Positions 1,066-61,300 of a stretch of 64,000 nt of DNA are shown piece by piece. Position 1 is the stretch's first letter; every line of letters begins with the position of its first letter. The position numbers and the translations under genes were made by a program. The stretch is from Bryoerythrophyllum caledonicum. Its lineage: Eukaryota > Streptophyta > Bryopsida > Pottiales > Pottiaceae. The DNA lies in assembly GCA_963971425.1 (NCBI GenBank), contig OZ020524.1:868001-932000 (forward strand), in the 5' to 3' direction. Under the pieces are notes generated by a model. That model was given only the letters and a program-made list of their open reading frames with translations. It was not told the origin of the DNA and made no database searches.

Positions 1066-1843
1066 TTAACCCCTAAATTTCTTGGACAATTTCTCACCAA
1101 AAACACTTCAAAACTGCTCGTTTAAGTGCACTGAGTAAGGACAAATCAAAAAACTTTTATTTGTAGTTTTAACCGTGGGATCTCAATTAAGACTTACATA
1201 AAAAAATTCATAAAGTTTGACTGCACGGATTGTAATATTATAGTGTTTGAAGTAGAGAAAAGGGTCAATTTTCTTCCCTCCATTTAGTAGATCAGCAAAC
1301 TTTGACTACACTTGGTGTCAAATTTTTGCACTACACTAGGTCTAAATCCAAATGATCAATAAGAAGGCTAACACCACATAATGCTGTAGAAAAAATAAAA
1401 TGTAAAACATATGATGATCTCAAAGTTTTATGTGAAAAAGAAGAAGTTTTTTTGGTACCTTGCCCGACAATGTGGAATAATGTGTGAAAATGTTTGACAT
1501 GAGTTAATATGCTTTTTTTTTTACTAAAGACAAGATATTTTCTTTGGCAATTTGGAAGGAAATAATATTATTAGCTAGATTTGAGAATTTCACATTCAGT
1601 AGAGTGTCCTAGCAAAAGTTTTTGGAGTTGCCCGACGTGCCTACTCTCCCCATTTGAACTTCAAAACCCTATAATTTTTTCATAAAATGCCGGATTTAGG
1701 ATAAAAATGGACTTACACAAAGCTTTTAGTAATGTCCATCTACATTAAAAATTTCAAAAAATGATGTTGTAAATTGACGCAGGAGGTACCTACCCCAACC
1801 TTGTAGAGTCCCCCAAGGGAATATTTGGAAATTTAGGGGTTAA
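1066..1843. mobile_element. TTAA-flanked non-autonomous element, copy A (internally deleted)
   Basis: The element starts TTAACCCCTAAATTTC and ends GGAAATTTAGGGGTTAA, so its ends are inverted repeats of about 16 bp including TTAA. It has no coding capacity. Its interior is recognisably the same sequence as copy D (58813-59763) in the same orientation, with shared blocks around the words 'aaaaacacttcaaaa', 'agtgtttgaagt' and 'ggtaccttgcccgacaatg'. Relative to copy D it lacks about 170 bp in the middle (near 1342-1350), explaining its length of 778 against 951 bp. TTAA at both ends could be a target-site duplication, as in piggyBac-type elements, or the outermost bases of the inverted repeat. 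Confidence 0.75.
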
Positions 1844-2670: not shown

Positions 2671-2946
2671 GCTAGGGCAAATTGACCCCCTCGCTGGGAC
2701 TTACCCAAGGTGGGACCCATCTAACTTGCACAGGGTCATTTTTTTGGCCCTCTTGTTTTGGAGGATTTAAAGGCTTTTTTTGGATTCTATGGACAAATTT
2801 GGAGCCAATGGATGTTGTTAACCCCAAAAGACCCTTCCTTACTATAAATAAGACCCCATCCAAAAACAAAATAGGGGCCAGGTTTGGTCCCACCACCTCG
2901 TGGCCCCCTCGGGTAAGTCCCAACAAGGGGGTCAATTCGCCCTAGC
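2671..2946. mobile_element. MITE-like element, first of an inverted pair
   Basis: A 276-bp element whose ends are long imperfect inverted repeats: the left end reads GCTAGGGCAAATTGACCCCC and the right end is its complement with a few mismatches over about 33 bp. It is non-coding. Open frames of 87 codons on both strands arise only because the element is nearly palindromic at its ends. It is related, in opposite orientation, to the element at 2997-3272. No clear target-site duplication is visible beyond the inverted repeats. Confidence 0.75.
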
Positions 2947-2996
2947 CAGCCCTCAAGAAGTGACAATAGTGGTGAGTCAGCCACAACATCGCCATG

Positions 2997-3272
2997 CCCA
3001 AGGCAAATTGACCCCCTCATTGGGAATACCCAAGGGGGCCAAGAGGTGGTGGGACCAAACCTGGCCCCTATTTTATTTTTGGATGGGATCCTAATTATAG
3101 CAAGGCACTATCCTCAAGGGTAAATGATGGCCGTAGGCCCCAAAATTATCCCCCAAAAATCCCAAAAAGCCTCTGGACCCCCCAAAATAAGAGGGCTAGA
3201 AAAATGACCCCATGCAATAAAGATGGGCCCACCTCAGATAACTCCCAAAGAGGGGGTCAATTTGCCCTGGGC
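2997..3272. mobile_element. MITE-like element, second of an inverted pair
   Basis: The same length class as the element 50 bp to its left but inverted. Its block 'gtgggaccaaacctggcccc' at 3049-3068 is the reverse complement of 'ggggccaggtttggtcccac' in the first copy. The ends carry the same GGCAAATTGACCCCCTC inverted repeat. It is non-coding. A partial identity of the flanks (gcccA/gggc, then a CATGGCCATGG palindrome on the right) blurs the exact boundary by a few bases. Confidence 0.72.
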
Positions 3273-7100: not shown

Positions 7101-8544
7101 ATTTCACGTGGATTTCGTCGAGCATGTTTTTTTCCTTATCAATGTCATACTAGATATTCCACCCATGAAGTGCCTATGAGCAGAATGGTGGATTTCAAAC
7201 AGTATTCTATTCTGTTTGTGGCTCTGTGTTTTTGTATTCATTTCCTAGATGTTTCGGTTGGGCAATAGGCACTATCCTCGGCATACCAGCCAATAGGAGC
7301 GGTCTTCGTCAGCCAGGAGATCTTCGATGCGATTTCCAAATTCAGCGACGGACTCGGTATGTTTGTGCCTCTTTGTACTCAAGAATCACATATTGTACCT
7401 GATCCAGATGTACGTTGTATTGATGTTGGGAGATGGCCGGTGACATCTTTTTGTGAACGTAGATAGGTGGGGAAATTTTGTCACAGTGACTGAATGTACC
7501 ATGTATTGAATAATGTAATTCAACATTTTGATGGATTATTGTTCTGTATTAGGCGCATTTGGGCACGGGTTCACGTATTCTGGCCATCCAGTTCCATGTG
7601 CTGTATCGTTGGAGGCACTGAAGATTTACAAGTAAGTGATGATGGATGTGAATGCTGCTTGTTTTGGGAATTACCTCTCATTTTAAGTTTCGTAAAGATC
7701 CTACTTTGGTTTGGTTGTGATTGCTTACTTGCAGTCAGAGAAGTTCAGGCTCTGAAGCTGTAAATGACATATCCATTGTGCATGATAGGGAGATCGATAT
7801 TTGTGCGAAAGTCAACAAGGTCATCCCCCCATTCCAGACGGGCATGAAGCAGCTCGAAAAGAGTTCCATTGTTGGAGAGGTACTTTTGTTTCTGTCTTTT
7901 TCGGATGCGAATGCCTGTTCATCCCCGATTCTGAAGTATATTGTTGAAAAGTTAAAGATCCATTCAAGAGGATCCGCAGTAGAATTTTCTATGATCGGAG
8001 GAGGACAAAAAACCGTTCATATGAATGATGAACTATAGCTCAATAGTATAGAGCTCCCTTTGTTGTTACCCCTGGCTGACAACCTATCGTTTGTCATGAA
8101 GGTGCGAGGGGTAGGCTTGGTGTGCGCAATCGAATTTGCTGCTAACAAGGAGACGTGTGAAGCGTTTCCGGCCAAATGGGGTACGCATCACATCCCTCTT
8201 GATGACATTCTGTTACCGAGCGCGCTAGACACTGATATCCTCTTCATTCTGTTGCAGCTGTGGGTACGCACTTCGCTGGCCAATGTGCATCACGCGGTAT
8301 GTTGGTGCGCGTGGCAGGCGACATCATCATGATGTCTCCTCCACTGATCGTCTCCGATTCAGAAATCGACTTCGTACGTTCTCTAAACTCCTAAACTCTT
8401 CAATCACTGTCATTTACAATTTGAGGACCATGGTCACGTACTGAAACCGGTTTGTGGTCACAGATGGTGAAGACAGCTTTGGCGGCCGTGTCGGAGACCG
8501 AGAAGCACGTGGCTGAGAAGACGAGCCACAAGGAGGCCTCATGA
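4127..8544 (+). CDS. GABA-T: GABA transaminase (class III PLP aminotransferase)
   Basis: Plant POP2-type enzyme transferring the amino group of GABA to pyruvate or glyoxylate, giving succinic semialdehyde. Eighteen exons: 4127-4254, 4337-4421, 4513-4585, 4701-4798, 5098-5190, 5449-5522, 5751-5789, 5976-6064, 6219-6295, 6534-6608, 6746-6793, 6959-7042, 7269-7356, 7553-7631, 7789-7879, 8102-8180, 8258-8373, 8464-8544. Phases match throughout and give 498 aa. Family marks: [11 protein letters not shown] near residue 90, NSGSEAND at 150-157 (cofactor phosphate binding), LIADE with the PLP-contacting D292, SVAK with the Schiff-base lysine K321 at the exon 12/13 junction, [10 protein letters not shown] near 354-363. 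The N-terminus is acidic/neutral and reaches the catalytic fold within about 45 residues, so no mitochondrial presequence is visible, unlike Arabidopsis POP2. A cytosolic form is likely unless an upstream exon exists. The next gene on the same strand starts 500 bp downstream. Confidence 0.95.
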
Positions 8545-14288: not shown

Positions 14289-17200
14289 ATGGCGGGTGCC
14301 ATGGAGGAAGAGGATGCGGAGCTCGAGGAGGGGGAGGCCAAGGAGGCGCTCGATCCCGAAACCGACTTCTCGTACATTGTAAATGCTCCAATTGTGCTGC
14401 CAATTCGTGTCTGGATGGGAGGAGTGAATGCGCGGACTAGGTTTTGCCACATTGTCGCAGGAATTGCGCGCCTTGGTGGTTGCGGTGGCCGTGGCTTTTT
14501 GGTTGTATCGGTTTTTCGGCGAGGGCGTAGGGGTAGCTTTGAATTTTTGGACATTCCGTGGATTGGTGATAGTTTTGGCTCGGGCACCGCTTTTGGTTGC
14601 GGAATCCCCTTGCGTCTAGATTCTTTTGACTGTATGTGAGGGAATCCTCGCAATTGCCATGTCGCGCGACGTCAGAAAACTTGCGCCAATCGCGTTATCT
14701 AGTTGCAGGCAGAGTAATCGGAGCTGCGTCTTGGAAGCGACGTAGAGAAGGGTTTGTAGAGTTGTTGGCCTCGTCTACCTAGGAAATGAGCTGCGAGGAC
14801 TTGTGCTCTGTGAATTTCCGAGGGCTGAAATGGCTTCCGGTGTTGTTGTGTGGCAGGAAAGGAGATTGGAAATGGTGTTGGGAGAGTGCCAGAAGGAGTT
14901 TCAAGGGGGGAACCTTTCTACGGAGAAATTGGGTATGCTCTCTCTTATCCGCACCACATGTAGAGCGAATTGCTTCCGTCCCTTCCCGCGTTTGGGAGGC
15001 AGGGAAGGGATTGTGCCCGGTCGGTCTAGCCACGCCTTGCTTGAATACCTAGTGTATGTGTGTATCAATCACGTCATGTTGCCAAGAAGAGGATTCTTCT
15101 ACTTGGAGCAACTGAACGATGATGCTTAAGGTACATACACGCTGAAGCCAAGGTTGGGTGATCTCAGGGTCGAAATATGGAGGATATGGCACTTTCCTGC
15201 CAACACAGGCTCGGATCCCATCTGTGCTGGCGGATCGACATCCTGCAGCGCCTGCGGCGGAGGTTGCGAGGCCGGTGGGAGAAGGAGTTGCAGCAGAGGT
15301 GACGGATACACACATCTTGCTACCGTTTTTGTTGAAACAACGCAGTTCATGTGGAAGTCTATCATCACTACTAACACAGAGGTGTGTTGGATGGCAGCCT
15401 GTGAAGCGCTCGGCGGGGACTTCAGTCTCGCAGGTCAGTGTGAAAGAGAACGGTGGGGTTTCGAAAAGCAAGCAGGTGAAGCTGAAAATTAAACTGGGGA
15501 AACAAGCTACGGGAACAAACGAAGCGAAACGGAAGGCGCTTTACAATGGACTTGGCTTGGATGGTGAATCTGAGGAGGATGCCTCTGTGGAGGAGGATGA
15601 CGACAATTACTCTCGTTCGAATGTGGAGTCCCCTGAACCCAGCCCCATGGCCATGATCGAGGTATGTCTGTCATGTTCCCCTTCACAGCAAGTGCATGGG
15701 TTCTGGATTAGGAACCAGAACATCGTTTATGATCTGTGAAGCAACCTGATGGATTCATCGCCATGACTCTTGGGACAGATGATGTCAGCGCCCTGCCCCG
15801 AAGGAGGCTTGCTCTCACCATTGTCGGATAGCACTTTCGAGAACATGGACGGGAAGGAATCCATTTTCCACACGCATAAAGCCGGGAATTTCTCTACAGC
15901 TACCTCAAATGCATATCCTCCTGGCAGCAAAGTCGATCTGAATTCACCTCATGGGTCTGGTTTAGACTACAGGAAAAGCAAAGCGTTCGATGTAGACAAG
16001 CACACCATGGACGGGAAAAAGGGTGCCGATTTCGCAGCTGAGTCTAATGGGACTCAAGGGAGGAAATCAAGAAGGGACTCTGACGCGGAGAAGCCGTTCG
16101 TGAAAGAGAGGCAATCCAAGTCTGGCAGGAATGACGTTGTTAGAGTGGAGCAACAGGACCCTCTGGATGACAAGGGGATGGAGGGATTTGGAAAGGAGGA
16201 GTTCGATCTAGTCAGGGACCCATCTAAAAGCTATCGTAAGCACCATCTCGAAATGAACAAGCCACCGGCTGTGAACGGTCAAAAGGACAAAGACGTCGCC
16301 GATGGTAAGGGACCTGGGAAATCACAAGCTTCCAAAGTTAGGGAGAGCAAGGAGTTCTCCCGATCTAAAGCTGTGAAGGCTCAGAATTTGAAGGAGAATG
16401 AGGTTGCCCGGATGGCGGATAGTGAGAACGATAAGGGGCTAACCTTGCCTGATGCCAGAAAGCAAGGGAAGGAAGAGAGCAAGATCACGGCTCCTGTAAG
16501 AACCAAAGAGAATTCTAAGGAGGGGTTTAGAGAAAATCAAAAGAGGGATGTCGCAGGAGATGTGAAAGCTAAAGAGCTTGTCAGGGACGCCGCTAAGCCT
16601 GGAAGTAATCCGAGTTCTACTAAGAAAACAAGTAGCGGTGTTCATGGTCGGAAAGGTGTCTCACACGAGCACAAGAGTTCCAAGAGTGCTCATGAGAAGA
16701 AATCGTCTATGAAGGAGCTTGAGAAAGACCGGATGAACTTATCCGAGCCCGTGGCTCTTAAGGAAGAGGAGAAGGTTCCAGCAGTTGTAGAGGCTGCGCC
16801 AGCTTCTTTGGTGGTCCCGCAACTTGTTCTAGACAACTGGGTTGAATGTGACAAGTGTGAGCAATGGCGGTTGCTGATGCCCCACGTGAACCCAAAGCCA
16901 CTACTGCTGAAGAAATGGCGCTGTAAAATGATGGATTGGCTGTAAGTCCCCGAGAGAGCTCATTTTTTTTCTCCAAGATCTGTACATGTCTTTACGTTCA
17001 CCTAGTTTTTCACATTTAAGGACTGCAGTGGTTTGTACATGTGTTAGGGGATGTGTGGACAATGTTATATACCGACATGCATGGATAGGGTCTACACGCT
17101 ATAGGTTGTCTGCAGGAATTTTCTTGTTGTGGGTGTTTATTTGAGCTACTTTCCTGCAAGGCTGACAAAGCATGGCTGAGGAAACAGGCCTGGAATGAAC

Positions 17201-21994: not shown

Positions 21995-24900
21995 TCATGC
22001 GGACGCTTGCAAACCCGGATCATGCAACTTCGAGTTCTGGATCTCAAGCGTCTCCCCATCCCTGGCCTCTGCTGGATTAGCCATTGCAGCCTCTACTGGA
22101 GTGGGGTCTGCTACAGCTGCTGTGGTTGGGTTGGGTGCTGAATATTCACGGTCTGACCTCCAGGACGTGGTGAGGTCCGGGGGAGCGGAGTCTCTGAGGG
22201 AGTCAGGGGACCTGTCGGAGACGCCGGGGTTGGGCATGCTGGAGGACGCGCTCACCACGTCCGGGGACCAGACGTCCCTGGTCTTCTTGCGGCGGCGAGA
22301 GCGCCGGGGCGTGGGCGGCTCCTCCTCCTCGATGAACATCACCAGCGACCGCAGGAAGCTCTTGCTCGCTTCCACCCGCGACATCTTCCTCTGTGGCCAC
22401 GCGTGCAACCCACACATGAGCAAAGTCGACAATATGAAGGGAAACCTCAGCACAACGAAGCGTTGAGAGTCTTCGAAGTACCTCGCTGTTGATAGCAAGC
22501 CCTTGAGACATCTTCCGGTGGCGCAGGACCATGCGGGCCCAGTACACGAGGCAACAGAAGATGGACGCACAGCCGGTGATGAGGAACAGGCCCCAGAACG
22601 TGCCCAAGCCGAGCTGCGAGGTCTCGCTCGCCACGTTCCGCTTGGTGCAGCTCTCCGTGTTCAGCCACAAATCGTGGATCCGCTGCAGCTCCCCGTTCTC
22701 CGACAGCTTCAGAATGGCAGTCGAGAAATCGATCGCCAGCTGGGAGCCCTTGGGAAATGCCTGCACAGCAACTGTCAGAACTACTTCTTCTGGCCAGGCA
22801 CGAGAGGTGGAGAGGGAGGGTGGGTGCTTACGAAGCCCCAGCCGCCCTTGGTGAACTCCTGGCCGGCGATGGTGAAGGCGCACTCGGAGGAGAGGAAGAG
22901 CTGCACGTAGGGGAGCTCGTCGACGATGGCGCCGACGCCGCCGCGGGCGGGGCCGCGGGTGAGCGCGGAGGCGTAGGCGGCGAGCGTGTCGAGCGGCACG
23001 AGGCGCTCCTCCGCGACGTTGAGCTGCAGCAGGTAGTCGCGCACGAACGAGCCCGTCTGGTAGCCGATGGGCACGTTGCTGGTGAGCAAGCTGGAAATGC
23101 CCTGGATGGTGGGCAGCAGCTGCTGGACAGTCAACAGCGACGTCAGGCTCGCGGTGTAGGAGCTGATGATGATGAGCACCACAAACAGCCAGATGATGAG
23201 AACCGCCCTACCCAGCGTGCTATTCACTTTCTCCCCTGAAAAAGCAGCAATCACCACAAATCAACAACCATCATCACAAACCATAATTTCATCACATTGA
23301 GATTTTTCAAGTCACATTCACGGCTTACTTTGCGAGAAATCACAGTCACGGCTTACTTTGCGAGAAAAACAGCGTCGAGAATATGAACCTGCAAGATCCA
23401 TGCGACAAAGTGAGTACACATTGAAGGTGGAAAACAAACAAGGACAGCATGCAGATGGGGAGAGTGGCCGCAGCGACGTACCAGAGAGTGGTGACGACCT
23501 GTTTTTTGGGGCGGCCCCGGAAGTGGCGATTCTTCTTGTGCTCGAGGTGCCAGATGACGAGGCCGGTGAAGAAGAAGAAGGCGCCGGTTGAGCACCACAT
23601 GGCCGGCGTGAAAGGGCGCATGAAGGCCCAGGCTTGGTTACTCTCGCCCTGCCGGATGGGCACCACGACGGCCAGCCCCGACGTCGTGTACGGCTGTGTG
23701 AAGTCCACTGTCATGGAGCGCTTCGTGGTGATCGTCACATCGCCCACCACCGCGTCGTAATCCTGCAGCTCATCTACACACCCGCTTTATGGATCCACAT
23801 GGCCTCCAAACCAAAGCAGCGGTAGCGTAAGCCATTACCTTCTCCACGATCTCGTTCACGAGCGCGTCATAGCTCGGTGTTGAGCTCCCGTTGCCGTACT
23901 TGGTGAAGCTGTATGCAACCGAGTAGGGCAGGTTGTTGATCGCCTGCTGGAACACGTCGATGCAGAACCCGTGAAACGAGGTGCGATTCTCGGAGTCGAT
24001 GGTCGAGCTCACAAACTCCTTGTACCCGATCTTGTTCGGCACGCCGATCACCAGCGGCCGCCCGTTTTTCGGCACCACCCACCCCCGCGGCACCTCCATC
24101 TGGCCCCCCGGCCAGATCACAGCTTGTAACTGCAGACCGAAAATCGGTGAGAAATCAGACCAGGACAACAGATCGGGATGGACAGGAAGTGCGACGTAGT
24201 TCTCACCCCGAATTTGGAGCTGTGTTCCACAGCATGGCTGACGCCGAGCGAGGTGGTGGTGTTGCGCGGCGCGGCGGGGAGGCAACCCGTGGCGTTGGAC
24301 CAGAAGCCGACGACGCGCAGGCCGTTGCCGACCATATTCATGATCTCGAAGGACGACCCGATGAAGTCCCCGCGCTCGTCGACCTGGACGGAGCCCGTGA
24401 CGCCGGCGAGCTGCGTCTCGAGCAGTGCGCGCTTGAAGAGCGCGCCATCGCGGAACACCTTGAGCTTGGCCATCTCGTTACTCCCTCCAGCGTCGCTGGG
24501 ATACGTCATGGGGTCCACGAACAACGTCGCCCCGCCCTGGTCCAGGAACCTCCGCAGCGCACGAGATATCATCCACACCGCATCGTACGCGTACAGCGCG
24601 TACACATTGTTCATCATGGCCGCTTCCGCGCCGTGGTACGCCCTCCAGCGCTCGCGGTACGCCTCCAAGAGCGGCGACGGCGGGATGTAGCTTCGCGTGG
24701 CGAGCACGTACTGCAGCGAGGCGACGAAGTTCGGATCCGCCTGCAGGAAGTCCATGACGCTCGCCATGGCCTCCGACACGATCCACACGTACCCAGATGA
24801 CACCATCTGCAGCCACTGCGCCATGATGAAGAGCTCGCGCCCCACGTTGGGCTCCATGTGCACCACGAACACGCGCGACTCCATCTGCGACAGCATCGCC

Positions 24901-25715
24901 AGCAAGCGCCCCAGCCCGTCGCTCGTCACCTTCGGGTCCAGCGCCGCCTTGTACACGATGCTCGACCCCACCGCCTTCAGCGAGTCGCCCAGCGCGTCGA
25001 TGCCATTGTTGCCGAAGTCGTCGTCCGTGTACACCGCCGTCACCTCCCTCCACCCGTAGTACTGAATTACACCTGCATCCCATCCCCTCACATCATCCAT
25101 CAAAAATGCCCACTAGGCGATAACAGAGATTCAGCTAGTCTCCTCACCGGCGATGGCGGCCATCTGCACGCTGTCGCTATGCGTGAGGCGCACGAAGTAG
25201 GGATACTGATCCTCGGAGAGCGAGGGGTCAGTGGCGGAGAACGATACCAGCGGGACGTGCGTGGCGGTGCACATGTGCGACACGAAGTGCGACACCACGG
25301 ACGTCTGCGGCCCCACGAACGCCACCACCTCCTCCTCCAGCAAGTTCATCGCTGCATGGGAACCAAATCACGTGTCATGTTCGTCTTGCGATTCATCCAC
25401 TGGGCAGAGCTCATTTCATGGAATCCACTTACCTGCGGCGGCGCCCTGGAACGCGCTGCAGTTGGTGTTGCCGAGATGCAGGACGAGCTGCGTGTCGTTG
25501 CCCAGGACGGAGGCATTGTTGACGTCGCGCACGGCGAGCTCCAGCGCCGCCTTGGCCGCGCGCCCGATCGTGGAATTGAAGGCGAGAAGCCCACCGATAG
25601 CGATGGACGCCGCGGGCGGGCTGCTCGGGGCCGGACCAGCTGCAGCATCAGCCATGGCCATCACCGCCGCCACCAGGAGGAGGATTGCCAATGACCCCCG
25701 CCATCGCTCCCACAT
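21995..25715 (-). CDS. GLR: Glutamate receptor-like cation channel (GLR)
   Basis: Plant GLR, an amino-acid-gated cation/calcium channel of plasma or internal membranes. Exons in transcript order: 25715-25433, 25351-25148, 25072-24207, 24129-23839, 23762-23482, 23388-23357, 23235-22832, 22760-22482, 22390-21995; 1011 aa. The ATG at 25713-25715 opens a hydrophobic signal peptide ([10 protein letters not shown]). Then come the LIVBP-type amino-terminal domain (about 45-450), ligand-binding S1 (about 465-600), M1 near 602-620, the pore segment [14 protein letters not shown] near 637-651 (assembled over 32-bp exon 6), M3 659-690 with [10 protein letters not shown] at 677-686 (counterpart of animal SYTANLAAF), S2, M4 near 841-864, and a Ser/Pro-rich cytoplasmic tail with [16 protein letters not shown]. 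Slightly longer than typical GLRs (900-950 aa). The acceptor of exon 5 could lie 6 bp earlier, adding two residues. Confidence 0.94.
23312..23367. repeat. 28-bp tandem duplication copying a splice donor in GLR
   Basis: Units 23312-23339 and 23340-23367 differ at one base. On the minus strand each contains CTCGCAAAGTAAGCC, the end of exon 6 with its donor. Only the upstream donor (exon end at 23357) keeps the frame into exon 7; use of the second would read into TGA. Confidence 0.85.
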
Positions 25716-30501: not shown

Positions 30502-31434
30502 TTAACCCCTAAAGGACCAAACGTCCCCCCGGGGTCATTTTGGATTTTGGGCATGTACCTACAATTCGAAAAAAAATCCTTTTTTAATCAACTTTTTTTT
30601 CAAGATAGGATCTGATAAGAGCTTCGTGGAGATATTTTTTTATTTTTTTTTGGATTTGTGGTTTGAAAGTTAGTATCACTTAAAGCCAAAAGTGGGACTT
30701 CGGGCACCTCCAAAAATTTTGACAAAAGTTTCTATTAACATTGAGATTTTTCACACATGTGAAGAATATTTCCTTATTTGGAAATTTTCAAAAAAAAATC
30801 TTGTCTTTAGTGTAAGAAGGCATTTTATTCCAAGTCAAACATTTTCACTCATTCTCGGGCAACGGGGGAAAAAAACTTCATCTTTTCTACATAAAACCTA
30901 GAGATCTTCATATTTTTCACTTTTGTTTTTTTCAACAACAATATATGGTGAAAACCTTCTAATTGACCGTTCGGATTATCATTTGACTACGTACGTAGTT
31001 CACAAAAGAATAAAACGTGAAATGGCAATTTTTTAACCTCCACTCCTTGCACACTTGTTTTGAATATGCTACACTCCTTTTTTACCTCTAAAAATTGGTG
31101 TGTTGACAAATAACATCATGCTTAAGACAATGGTAAAAGATTTAGACCTTGTACAATGCAAAAATTTGATACAAAATGAAGTCAAAGTCAGCTGATCTAC
31201 TCAACGCAGGGATGAAAATGAACCATTGTTTTGACTTTAAACACTAAAATCTATCAATCCGTGCGGTGGATCGCAACCAAAATTTAATGGCATGTTTATG
31301 TGGAAGTCTATTTTAAGATCTTACGGTTGAAAATCCGAAATTCACTTTAAAATGTGATTTTCATGTCTCTTTTTGACAGTGGCAGTTTTGGACTGGTTTT
31401 AGAGCGAATTAGGTCGTGGTCCTTTAGGGGTTAA
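30502..31434. mobile_element. TTAA-flanked non-autonomous element, copy B
   Basis: A 933-bp element with perfect terminal inverted repeats: TTAACCCCTAAAGGACCA at the left and its exact complement at the right (ending 31434). It is non-coding. The first 60 bp (acgtccccccgggg, then tttgggcatgt) define a subfamily shared with copy F at 60556. The interior shares blocks with copies A, C, D and G, such as 'cgggcacctccaaaa' and 'ctcgggcaac'. Perfect end repeats suggest it is among the younger copies. The flanks beyond TTAA show no further duplication. Confidence 0.85.
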
Positions 31435-32651: not shown

Positions 32652-33585
32652 TTAATCCCTAAAGGACCATTGAAGTGTCAAAATGGGCTTTTAAAAGTTT
32701 GGTCAGGTTCCTATGGTGTCAATTTCCAACATTCCACTTTGAAATTTTGATTGTAGAAGGCAAGTACTAAGACCTCGGTGGGAGAACAATTATTTCCTAA
32801 ATCTGACATTTAATAATGAAAAAGTAATAGGATTTTGAATTTCAAATGCGAAGGGGGGGCAAGTCGGGCACCTCCAAAAACTTCTGCTAGGACACTCTAT
32901 TGAATGTGAGATTTTCAATACTAGCAAGTGACATTATTTCTTTTCATATGGTCCAAAAAAAGTTCTTGTATTTAGTGAAAAATAGCATACTAACCCAAGA
33001 CAAACATTCTCACACATTGTCGGGCAACATACCAAGAAAACTTCTTCTTTTCCACATAAAACTTAGAGATCTTCATATAATTGAATTTTTATTTTTTCAA
33101 TACCAACATGTAGTGTATATCTTCTTATTGACCATTTGGATTAACAATTTGAAACATATTAAGTTCACAAAATATGAAAACGTGAAATGGCAAATTTTGA
33201 ACCTCCACTCTTTGCACAATTGCTTTGAATATACTACATTGTTCCTCTACCTCTAAAAATTGTTGTCTAAGGAACTAACATCATGCTTAACATGATGGTA
33301 ATGGATTTAGACCTTGTGTAGTGCAAAAAATTGACACCAAGTCTTCCCAAAGTCTGTCGATCCATTGAAAATGAAGTCTTGCTTGACTTCAAACACTATA
33401 ATCTTTCAACTTGTGCAGTCGAAGTTTATAAAATTTTGTGAGTATGTTACTTAATAGGTATTAATTGAGATCTTATGATCTGATCTAAAAAAAATAAAAT
33501 TGTTCCCTCTTTTTTTCATTGCACTAGAATTCAACAAATTTGAAGTGTTTTTGGTCTGAAATTGTCACGATATCTTAAGGATTAA
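32652..33585. mobile_element. TTAA-flanked non-autonomous element, copy C
   Basis: A 934-bp element starting TTAATCCCTAAAGGACCA. The right end (cttaaggattaa) is a degenerate complement. It has the second subfamily's beginning (gtgtcaaaatgggc, caggttcctatggtgtcaatttcc), which matches the reverse complement of the right end of copy D. It is non-coding, and older than copy B to judge by its end mismatches. Confidence 0.8.
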
Positions 33586-58812: not shown

Positions 58813-59763
58813 TTAACTCCTAAGTTACCGTGACAGTTTTACACCAAAAACACTTCAAAATTAACGGATTCTAGTGCAATGAATAAAGAAGGTAACAAAA
58901 ACTTTGATTTTTAGTTCTGACCGTAGGATCTCAATAAAGGCTTATTAAGTGATACCTGTACAAAATTTCATAAACTTTGACCGCACGGATTGAGAGATTA
59001 TAGTGTTTGAAGTCAAGCAAATGGTTCATTTTCTTCCCTGCGTTTAGTGGATCAGCAGCCTTTGACTTCAGTTGGTGTCAAAAAAATTCACTACACAAGA
59101 TCTAAATCCATTACCATCTTGTTAAGCATGATGTTAGCTCCTTACACACCAATTTTTAGAGGTAGACACGGGGTGTAGCATATTCAAAATAAGTGTGCAA
59201 GGAGTGGAGGCTCGAAATTTGTTAATTCACACTTTAATTTTTTTTTAACTTAATATGTTTTTTATTGATAATCCGAATGGTTAATAAGAAGGTTTACATT
59301 ACATATTGTTGTGGAAAAGATAAAAAGTGGAAAATATAAAGATACCTAGGTTTTATGTGGAAAAGAAGAAGTTTTTTTGGTACCTTGCCCGACAATGAGT
59401 GACAATGTGTGAAAATGTTTGACTTGGGTTGGTATGCTATTTTTCACTAAAGACAAGATTTTTTTTGACAATATGAAGGGAAATGATATTACTTGCGAGT
59501 ACTGAAAATCTCACTTTCAATAGAGTGTCCTATCAAAAGTTTTTGGAGCTACCCGAGGTGCCCGCTCTCCCCGTTTAAAATTCAAAACCCTATAACTTTT
59601 TCATCAAATGTCCAATTTAGGAAAAAATTGTTTTCCCACTAAGGTCTTAGTAATGTCTTTCTAAAGTAAAAAATTCAAAGAAGAATGTTGGAAATTGACA
59701 CCATAGGAACCTGACCGATCTTTCAAAAAGCCCATTTTTGACACTTGGTACCTTAGGGGTTAA
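58813..59763. mobile_element. TTAA-flanked non-autonomous element, copy D
   Basis: A 951-bp element starting TTAACTCCTAAGTTACC and ending GGTACCTTAGGGGTTAA. It is the fullest copy of the orientation shared with copy A. Its right 80 bp, reversed, match the left end of copies C and G (ggaaattgacaccataggaacc). It is non-coding and carries the shared internal block TTGGTACCTTGCCCGACAATG at 59380-59396 and nearby. Confidence 0.82.
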
Positions 59764-60140: not shown

Positions 60141-60362
60141 TCAACCTCTAAAGGACCAAGGGTTTGTTTGGGGGACAATTTATCACTTTGATTGCATTTA
60201 TCTTTTAATACTTACGGTCATAAATCACAAAAAAATTATCACATCATCTCATATAAGTATGGAAGTCAATTCTATAGTTACATTTTCAAAAAGTTCATCT
60301 AGGCAGGTTTTAATCAATGGAGTAGAGATTCCTCTAAAATGCCTTGGTCCTTGAGGGGTTGA
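60141..60362. mobile_element. Short element with TTAA-family ends, copy E
   Basis: A 222-bp element whose ends TCAACCTCTAAAGGACCAAGG and CCTTGGTCCTTGAGGGGTTGA are inverted repeats closely related to those of the family. The outermost four bases are TCAA/TTGA, complementary rather than directly repeated. The interior is short and different, so it is a MITE-sized derivative. It is non-coding. Confidence 0.7.
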
Positions 60363-60555: not shown

Positions 60556-60810
60556 TTAACCTCTAGAGGACCAAGTGTCCCTTAGGGTACGATTTTAATT
60601 TTGGCATGTTCCTAAAAAAATAAAAAATAAAAATTCTTTTTGAAAGTTTTTATACCAGCTTTTCTTTGATAAAAGCTTGTTGGAGGTATTTTTATTATTT
60701 ATTTTGGATTCATAATTTGGAAGTTAGTACCACTCAAAGTTAGAAATGGGGACTCCGGGCAGCTCCAAAATTTTGCTAGACGCTTTTATTGACATTGAGA
60801 TTTTTCATAC
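60556..60810. mobile_element. TTAA-family element, copy F, truncated
   Basis: Starts TTAACCTCTAGAGGACCAAG and follows copy B for about 250 bp (gtgtccc, ttttggcatgttcct, ggacatccgggc-like block, ctattgacattgagatttttca), then stops abruptly where copy G begins with its own TTAA. Its remaining two thirds and its right end are not found. Confidence 0.7.
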
Positions 60811-61300
60811 TTAACTTCTAAAGGACCAAGTGTCAACAATGGTCAATTAGTTAGTTCAGTAAGGTCCCTATGGTGTCAATTTCTAGAATTCCTTTTTGAA
60901 AATTATACTTTAGAAGGGCACTAGTAAAACCTTGGTGGGAGAACACTTTTTTCCTAAATCCAATATATAATGAAAAAGTTTATAAAGTTTTGAATTTCAA
61001 ATGGAGAGAGGAGGTGCATCGGGCACATCCAAAAACTTTTGCTAGAACACTCTATTGAATATAAGATTTATCAATACTAGCAAGTAATATTATTTCCTTT
61101 CACATTGTCAAATAATATTTTCTGTCTTCAGTGAAAAATAGCATATTAACCCAAGTCAAAGATTTTCACACAACGGCACAAACTGTCGGGCAAGGTACCA
61201 AAATAATTTCTTCCTTTTCACAAAAGGCATAGAATTCTTCATATTTTTTTACCTTTTATTTTTCCACGACAATATGTGGTATAGACCTTCTTATTGACCA
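60811..61300. mobile_element. TTAA-family element, copy G, truncated at right
   Basis: Starts TTAACTTCTAAAGGACCAAG and follows copy C through 'ctatggtgtcaatttct', 'gggcacatccaaaaacttttgctagaacactc' (in part), 'gtcgggcaaggtacc' and 'gtggtatagaccttcttattgacca'. The match is lost near 61300. It appears to sit inside copy F. It is non-coding. Confidence 0.7.

Follow-up and report, generated by a model that had tools for sequence, protein, structure and literature searches.

Elements in a moss genome that are, in all likelihood, non-autonomous piggyBac transposons

The window analyzed here, a 64-kb stretch of a 437 Mb moss genome (G000:C12:868001-932000), contains full and truncated copies of short, non-coding elements bounded by TTAA, which are very probably non-autonomous piggyBac transposons (MITEs). 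We make this assignment because empty sites carrying TTAA were found, the ends of the elements begin with CCC, their copy number is high, the genome contains piggyBac transposase genes, and the ends of one transposase-bearing element, L037, are homologous to those of the copy under study (the focal copy, 30502-31434). The family to which the focal copy belongs is young-looking. An LHCII protein from locus L053 fits the moss host: after one long fused chain (9vfj), its best structure matches were 8htu (472 bits) and 7xqp (470 bits), both from Physcomitrium, and the next reached 439 bits.

Results

Elements in the window

The initial annotation of this DNA had listed a dispersed family of seven copies, and a related sequence was present at every one of the seven positions. 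The features of the window and of the focal copy are as follows (positions are those of the window).

30502..31434, + strand: the focal copy, a 933-bp member of type B with TTAA at either end and a perfect 18-bp inverted repeat, TTAACCCCTAAAGGACCA
30502..30691, + strand: left end region of type B (B 1-190); L037 and L033, both transposase elements, have similar left ends
30785..31267, + strand: core (B 284-766); common to the other three full copies, 74-79% identity
31268..31434, + strand: right end region of type B (B 767-933); part of a stretch of ~200-228 bp to which the right ends of L037 and L028, also transposase elements, are similar
1066..1843, - strand: full copy A of 778 bp, with TTAA at either end and a perfect 16-bp inverted repeat
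32652..33585, + strand: full copy C of 934 bp, with TTAA at either end and imperfect inverted ends
58813..59763, - strand: full copy D of 951 bp, with TTAA at either end and imperfect inverted ends
60141..60362, no strand assigned: 222-bp element; terminal sequence similar, edges TCAA/TTGA, interior unmatched by the four full copies
60556..60810, + strand: truncated copy, left end only
60811..61300, + strand: truncated copy, left end only

All four full copies start and end exactly with TTAA, as had been annotated. They were also described as non-coding and 780-950 bp long; they measured 778-951 bp, their longest ATG frames were 29 aa (copy A), 25 aa (focal copy B), 102 aa (C) and 32 aa (D), and their A+T content was 66-68%. 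The interior blocks said to be common to them were confirmed, at 40-433 nt and mostly 74-84% alike. The elements thus have the properties by which MITEs are recognized: they are non-coding, have inverted ends, occur in many copies and are homogeneous in length (778-951 bp). The claim that all share the same inverted ends applied in part. The 18-bp perfect repeat belongs to the focal copy alone; the 16-bp perfect repeat of copy A differs from it in the sequence after CCCCTAAA, and the inverted ends of copies C and D are imperfect. Likewise, the list of seven reduces to four full copies, two truncated ones that retain the left end, and the element at 60141-60362, which has end sequence alone in common with the others and gave no match to the four full copies (blastn, E 1e-4). 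The inverted ends of this last element are piggyBac-like, and the TCAA on its left and TTGA on its right may represent either mutated TTAA or a variant target.

No piggyBac-like protein was detected in the window by tblastn with five piggyBac proteins of the same genome (E up to 1). Near the copies lie a glutamate-receptor-like plant gene (24117-25112, - strand; ANF_receptor, 6e-47; best solved match, Glutamate receptor 3.4) and a plant CW-type zinc-finger gene (15767-16945, + strand). The window also contains nested long inverted repeats at 2674-3268, with arms at 2674-2717/3225-3268 (84%) and 2791-2930/3012-3151 (76%) and ends AGGGCAAATTGACCCCC / GGGGGTCAATTTGCCCT. This region resembles a fold-back or a further MITE-like element, and no relation in sequence to the focal MITE family was seen.

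Copy number and divergence in the genome

The exact 18-mer TTAACCCCTAAAGGACCA occurred 5,530 times in the genome (2,743 + 2,787). Its abundance is not due to chance, because the same pattern read backwards occurred 0 + 0 times. For the type-B right end, the exact 19-mer CCCCTAAAGGACCACGACC was found 533 + 562 times. When the focal copy was searched against the genome and the 40 best of 6,607 first-look candidates were scored, 46 rows were obtained, 40 of which (including the focal copy itself) were 97-100% identical to it; at least 39 other copies therefore match 932-933 of its 933 bases at 97-99% identity, and the seven annotated copies are the window's share of a much larger population. Among the matches listed for contig C1 up to 5.7 Mb, TTAA preceded 26 of 27 type-B right ends, and 19 pairs of facing 18-mers lay 900-1,000 bp apart. 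The type-B right ends listed for C1 were unevenly distributed, with 27 in the first 5.76 Mb and 7 at 26.5-41.5 Mb.

The mean K2P distance among the eight best-scoring copies, including the focal copy, was 1.27% (range, 0.5-1.8%). The whole family is more diverse than this value, because the eight were chosen for their likeness to one copy. In the earlier description of the elements as "non-autonomous debris", the word "debris" undersells a family whose best-matching copies differ by ~1%.

Target site

TTAA was present on both sides of all eight copies that were examined with their flanks, which were otherwise different. For each of these copies, a query was built from its flanks joined across one TTAA (200 + 4 + 200 bases). 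Scoring of the 40 best of 2,824 candidates gave 84 rows, of which the top 40 spanned the junction at 91-94% identity. These 40 belonged to two of the eight copies (11 to the flanks of L007 and 29 to those of L003); for the remaining six, no junction-spanning empty site appeared among the 40 candidates scored of 2,824. The L007 site was a single TTAA in all five relatives examined (five of the 11 rows), and the L003 site was a single TTGA, not TTAA, in all five examined (five of the 29 rows). None of the ten aligned relatives had a gap at the insertion site, and two had single-base gaps elsewhere. The check proposed in the initial annotation thus gave, for two of eight copies, one four-base word at the point where the inserted copy is bracketed by two TTAA, and the duplication of 8-9 bp that was to count against piggyBac was not seen in the empty sites.

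Insertion at TTAA was also visible within the elements themselves. The transposase-bearing element L023 sits at a TTAA of a MITE-core copy, with flanks matching on both sides; the left end of the L033 element adjoins the same TTAA of another core copy, its right side being unmatched, and the same TTAA is unoccupied in copy C of the window. A second piggyBac-like MITE family was represented in L023 and L024 by an element of 887 bp (7607-8493) with ends TTAACCCCTAAAGTCGAA. The empty site of this element in L021 was a single TTAA.

The empty-site data fix TTAA as the target. One TTAA-type word stands in the empty site and two stand there after insertion, with short inverted ends that begin with CCC beside TTAA, as in piggyBac; a duplication of 2-4 bp is formally compatible with these sites. 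They show no longer duplication, and thus neither the 9-11 or 8 bp nor the 3-bp non-TTAA word of Mutator, hAT and CACTA elements. Since TTAA is palindromic, empty sites alone cannot separate a 4-bp duplication from one of 2 or 3 bp, and the link to a transposase therefore carries that weight.

piggyBac transposase genes and the ends of their elements

A profile search of the genome with PF13843 (DDE_Tnp_1_7, the piggyBac domain), in which 116 of 305 candidates were scored, gave at least 120 rows, the best with E 6.2e-81; the same domain was found in none of 14 control genomes. The annotated absence of a transposase is therefore true of the window and untrue of the genome. Internal stops were absent from 47 of 120 rows by hand count, and many rows carry stops. 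Twenty loci were chosen among the stronger rows, and ten-kb stretches were examined. The three catalytic Asp motifs lay within one open frame at 17 of these loci, 15 of which had a C-x2-C...C-x2-C motif after them; at L021, L022 and L034 an Asp motif was missing from the open frame. Stop-to-stop frames reached 1,059 aa, with long low-complexity N-termini. The L028 protein matched the solved piggyBat transposase (E 1.4e-28) and 6x67 (E 2.6e-27) with the Asp motifs in register, and a Pfam scan of four proteins returned DDE_Tnp_1_7 only. A tree was built from 13 of the 20 transposases, leaving out the seven for which a motif escaped either the first motif pattern or the open frame; in it L028, L033, L037 and L040 formed one clade (support, 99/99).

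The ends of the transposase-bearing elements are TTAACCCCTAAA... or TTAACCCTTAA..., several of the 20 loci having an end that was missing or ambiguous. Two pairs of elements fix the borders, because their members are alike up to both TTAA-bounded ends and differ in their flanks: L026 and L030 (97.2% over 4.9 kb) and L023 and L024 (99.4% over 5.8 kb). L037, which bears a transposase, measures 7,557 bp counted from one terminal TTAA to the other, and its perfect inverted repeat is 20 bp long with TTAA included. Read inward, the left end of the focal copy matched that of L037 at 66.5% over 209 columns (E 4e-10) and that of L033 at 79% over 72, and its right end matched that of L037 at 74.6% over 228 (E 1e-36) and that of L028 at 75.9% over 203. 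The last 18 bases of the L028 element are exactly TGGTCCTTTAGGGGTTAA, which is the focal 18-mer at the right end. For L028 no left end was found; its place is taken up by a run of N and by an old MITE nested there. The DDE_Tnp_1_7 domain and Asp triad expected of piggyBac are therefore encoded by elements with homologous ends and not by the MITE itself.

The initial annotation had foreseen a longer member with the same ends and a transposase. Transposase-bearing elements with homologous ends were found; among the 20 loci examined behind the 120 rows, none combined TTAACCCCTAAAGGACCA at either end with the subterminal sequence of type B. Two candidate routes to such an autonomous member were also followed. 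The sole pair of facing 18-mers 2-20 kb apart (6,483 bp, contig C1; 100 listed) proved to be two type-D-like MITEs, and the pattern TTAACCCCTAAAGGACCAAGCC, taken from the L028 end, occurred at 24 places, of which, by eye, only that of L028 had a listed transposase less than 10 kb away. The partner to which end homology led was of piggyBac type, and not of the other superfamilies that had been named as grounds for rejection. The piggyBac-type interpretation first proposed from the window is thus supported by the empty sites, the DDE_Tnp_1_7 genes and the transposase elements with homologous ends.

In L021, L023 and L024, the end that resembles the left end of the focal copy is situated downstream of the transposase; in L033 and L037 it is situated upstream. 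Either the gene or the ends have apparently been turned round between these two sets of lineages.

A common core with different ends

The core of the focal copy (B 284-766) recurred in the other full copies, all three of them, at 74-79% identity (lowest E, 6e-121). End sequences of the focal copy (19-190 and 767-915) were compared with those of the other copies against shuffled sequences that preserve base composition only. They were no better than shuffled against copy C (z 0.9 and 0.9), weakly similar to copy D (z 2.9 and 0.8) and somewhat alike to copy A (z 5.0 and 12.1), and the ends of copies C and D were plainly alike (z 57 and 34). One core of ~480 bp therefore travels with different ends, since the core is alike and the ends of the MITE types are largely unrelated. 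As a native part of a transposase element, the core was not found in the 20 loci; its occurrences there, judged by alignment, looked like nested MITEs or fragments.

Discussion

The TTAA target by itself would suit elements of other kinds. Tourist-like PIF/Harbinger MITEs (3-bp TTA/TAA duplication) or Tc1/mariner-like MITEs (TA), in which the extra bases of TTAA belong to the element, agree formally with the empty sites of L007, L003 and the 887-bp element, TTAA being a palindrome. In such elements, however, the outer T and A would be free flank, yet both are constant in eight of eight copies and in 26 of the 27 listed ends, and homology links the MITE ends to the ends of elements that carry a piggyBac transposase; we consider this origin highly unlikely. 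Kolobok and Sola3 elements use TTAA, as these copies do, and another TTAA-duplicating superfamily of this sort would account for the target, but not for ends homologous to elements that encode DDE_Tnp_1_7 proteins, so that we regard it as extremely improbable.

A further question concerns mobility and leaves the piggyBac assignment in place. The MITEs may no longer move, their transposases being silenced or dead and the near-identity of the copies reflecting a past burst or the choice of best matches. The eight copies compared were indeed the best-scoring ones, and many PF13843 rows contain stops. Against this stand at least 40 rows (focal copy included) at 97-100% identity to the focal copy, two TTAA-bounded pairs of transposase elements that are 97% and 99% alike in different flanks, and the three Asp motifs in one open frame at 17 of 20 loci. 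On this evidence we place immobility somewhat short of an even chance.

For the focal family, the piggyBac reading takes its simplest form as an internal-deletion product of a relative of the L028/L033/L037/L040 clade, because of the end matches and the clade itself. The MITE would have been born when a transposase element lost its coding interior, and this coding-less element would then have multiplied in trans. A transposase of the L028/L033/L037 clade would recognize the MITE ends together with the adjoining ~200 bp, excise the MITE and reinsert it at TTAA; excision would leave no scar, to judge from what is established for the piggyBac family. The burst would be recent and may continue.

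The boldest reading of the core and its ends goes further. piggyBac elements would be diverse and still mobile in the moss lineage, and the MITEs would be modular, the ~480-bp core being re-equipped with ends of different transposase lineages and hence independent of any one transposase; type B would have ends like those of the L028/L033/L037 clade, and types C and D other ends. The ends could be exchanged by insertion at the core-internal TTAA, as seen for the L023 element and on the left side of L033, followed by recombination or template switching. A duller reading is that the ends diverged fast and were never exchanged. We put forward the modular reading tentatively and think it rather unlikely as a whole.

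piggyBac is a standard genetic tool, familiar from insects and scarcely reported from plants, and its host range is well documented. The solved transposases 6x67/6x68 ("Transposase"), which we take to be Trichoplusia ni piggyBac, and the piggyBat transposase (9c0f) belong to a superfamily with the same TTAA target and CCC-beginning inverted ends as the moss elements, the same DDE_Tnp_1_7 domain with Asp motifs in register, and a Cys-rich C-terminus. The moss elements differ in that they reside in a land plant, that their stop-to-stop frames extend to 1,059 aa and that the N-termini of these frames are long and of low complexity. piggyBac-related MITEs have reportedly been described from coral and silkworm; like the moss copies these are short, non-coding and multi-copy, whereas the moss copies are in a plant host. 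Plant MITEs are usually sorted into five superfamilies.

The moss elements also differ in their ends, CCCCTAAA or CCCTTAA; CCCTT is given as the most conserved end motif in a survey of animal piggyBacs (PMC10813416). A 2025 study of 207 plant genomes, four bryophytes among them, places MITEs in five superfamilies and, in its main text, has no piggyBac class; a term search of that text returned "piggyBac" 0 times and "TTAA" 0 times (PMC12550479). The MITEs described there resemble the moss copies in being hundreds of bp long, A+T-rich and non-coding, with inverted ends and many copies, and the moss copies differ by their TTAA target and piggyBac ends. Plants are mentioned elsewhere: the abstract of the animal survey names plants, beside insects and fungi, as sources from which piggyBac has been isolated (PMC10813416), and the repeat table of the C-fern paper lists 1,230 PiggyBac copies amounting to 122,417 bp (PMC6890710). 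A moss genome paper (PMC10619864) was matched by a literature search on native piggyBac through "piggybacking" alone. The kind of element is thus known and its host setting is unusual, because the moss copies have the hallmarks of piggyBac, PMC12550479 is without it in its main text, and PMC10813416 and PMC6890710 mention it for plants in the parts cited.

The host range of piggyBac would be widened by a land plant that has piggyBac-type ends in the thousands, copies that are nearly identical and numerous open-frame transposase genes; such a plant would also offer plant-adapted piggyBacs as candidates for seamless excision in plants. Copies of this sort may be overlooked or misnamed by annotation schemes that have no class for TTAA.
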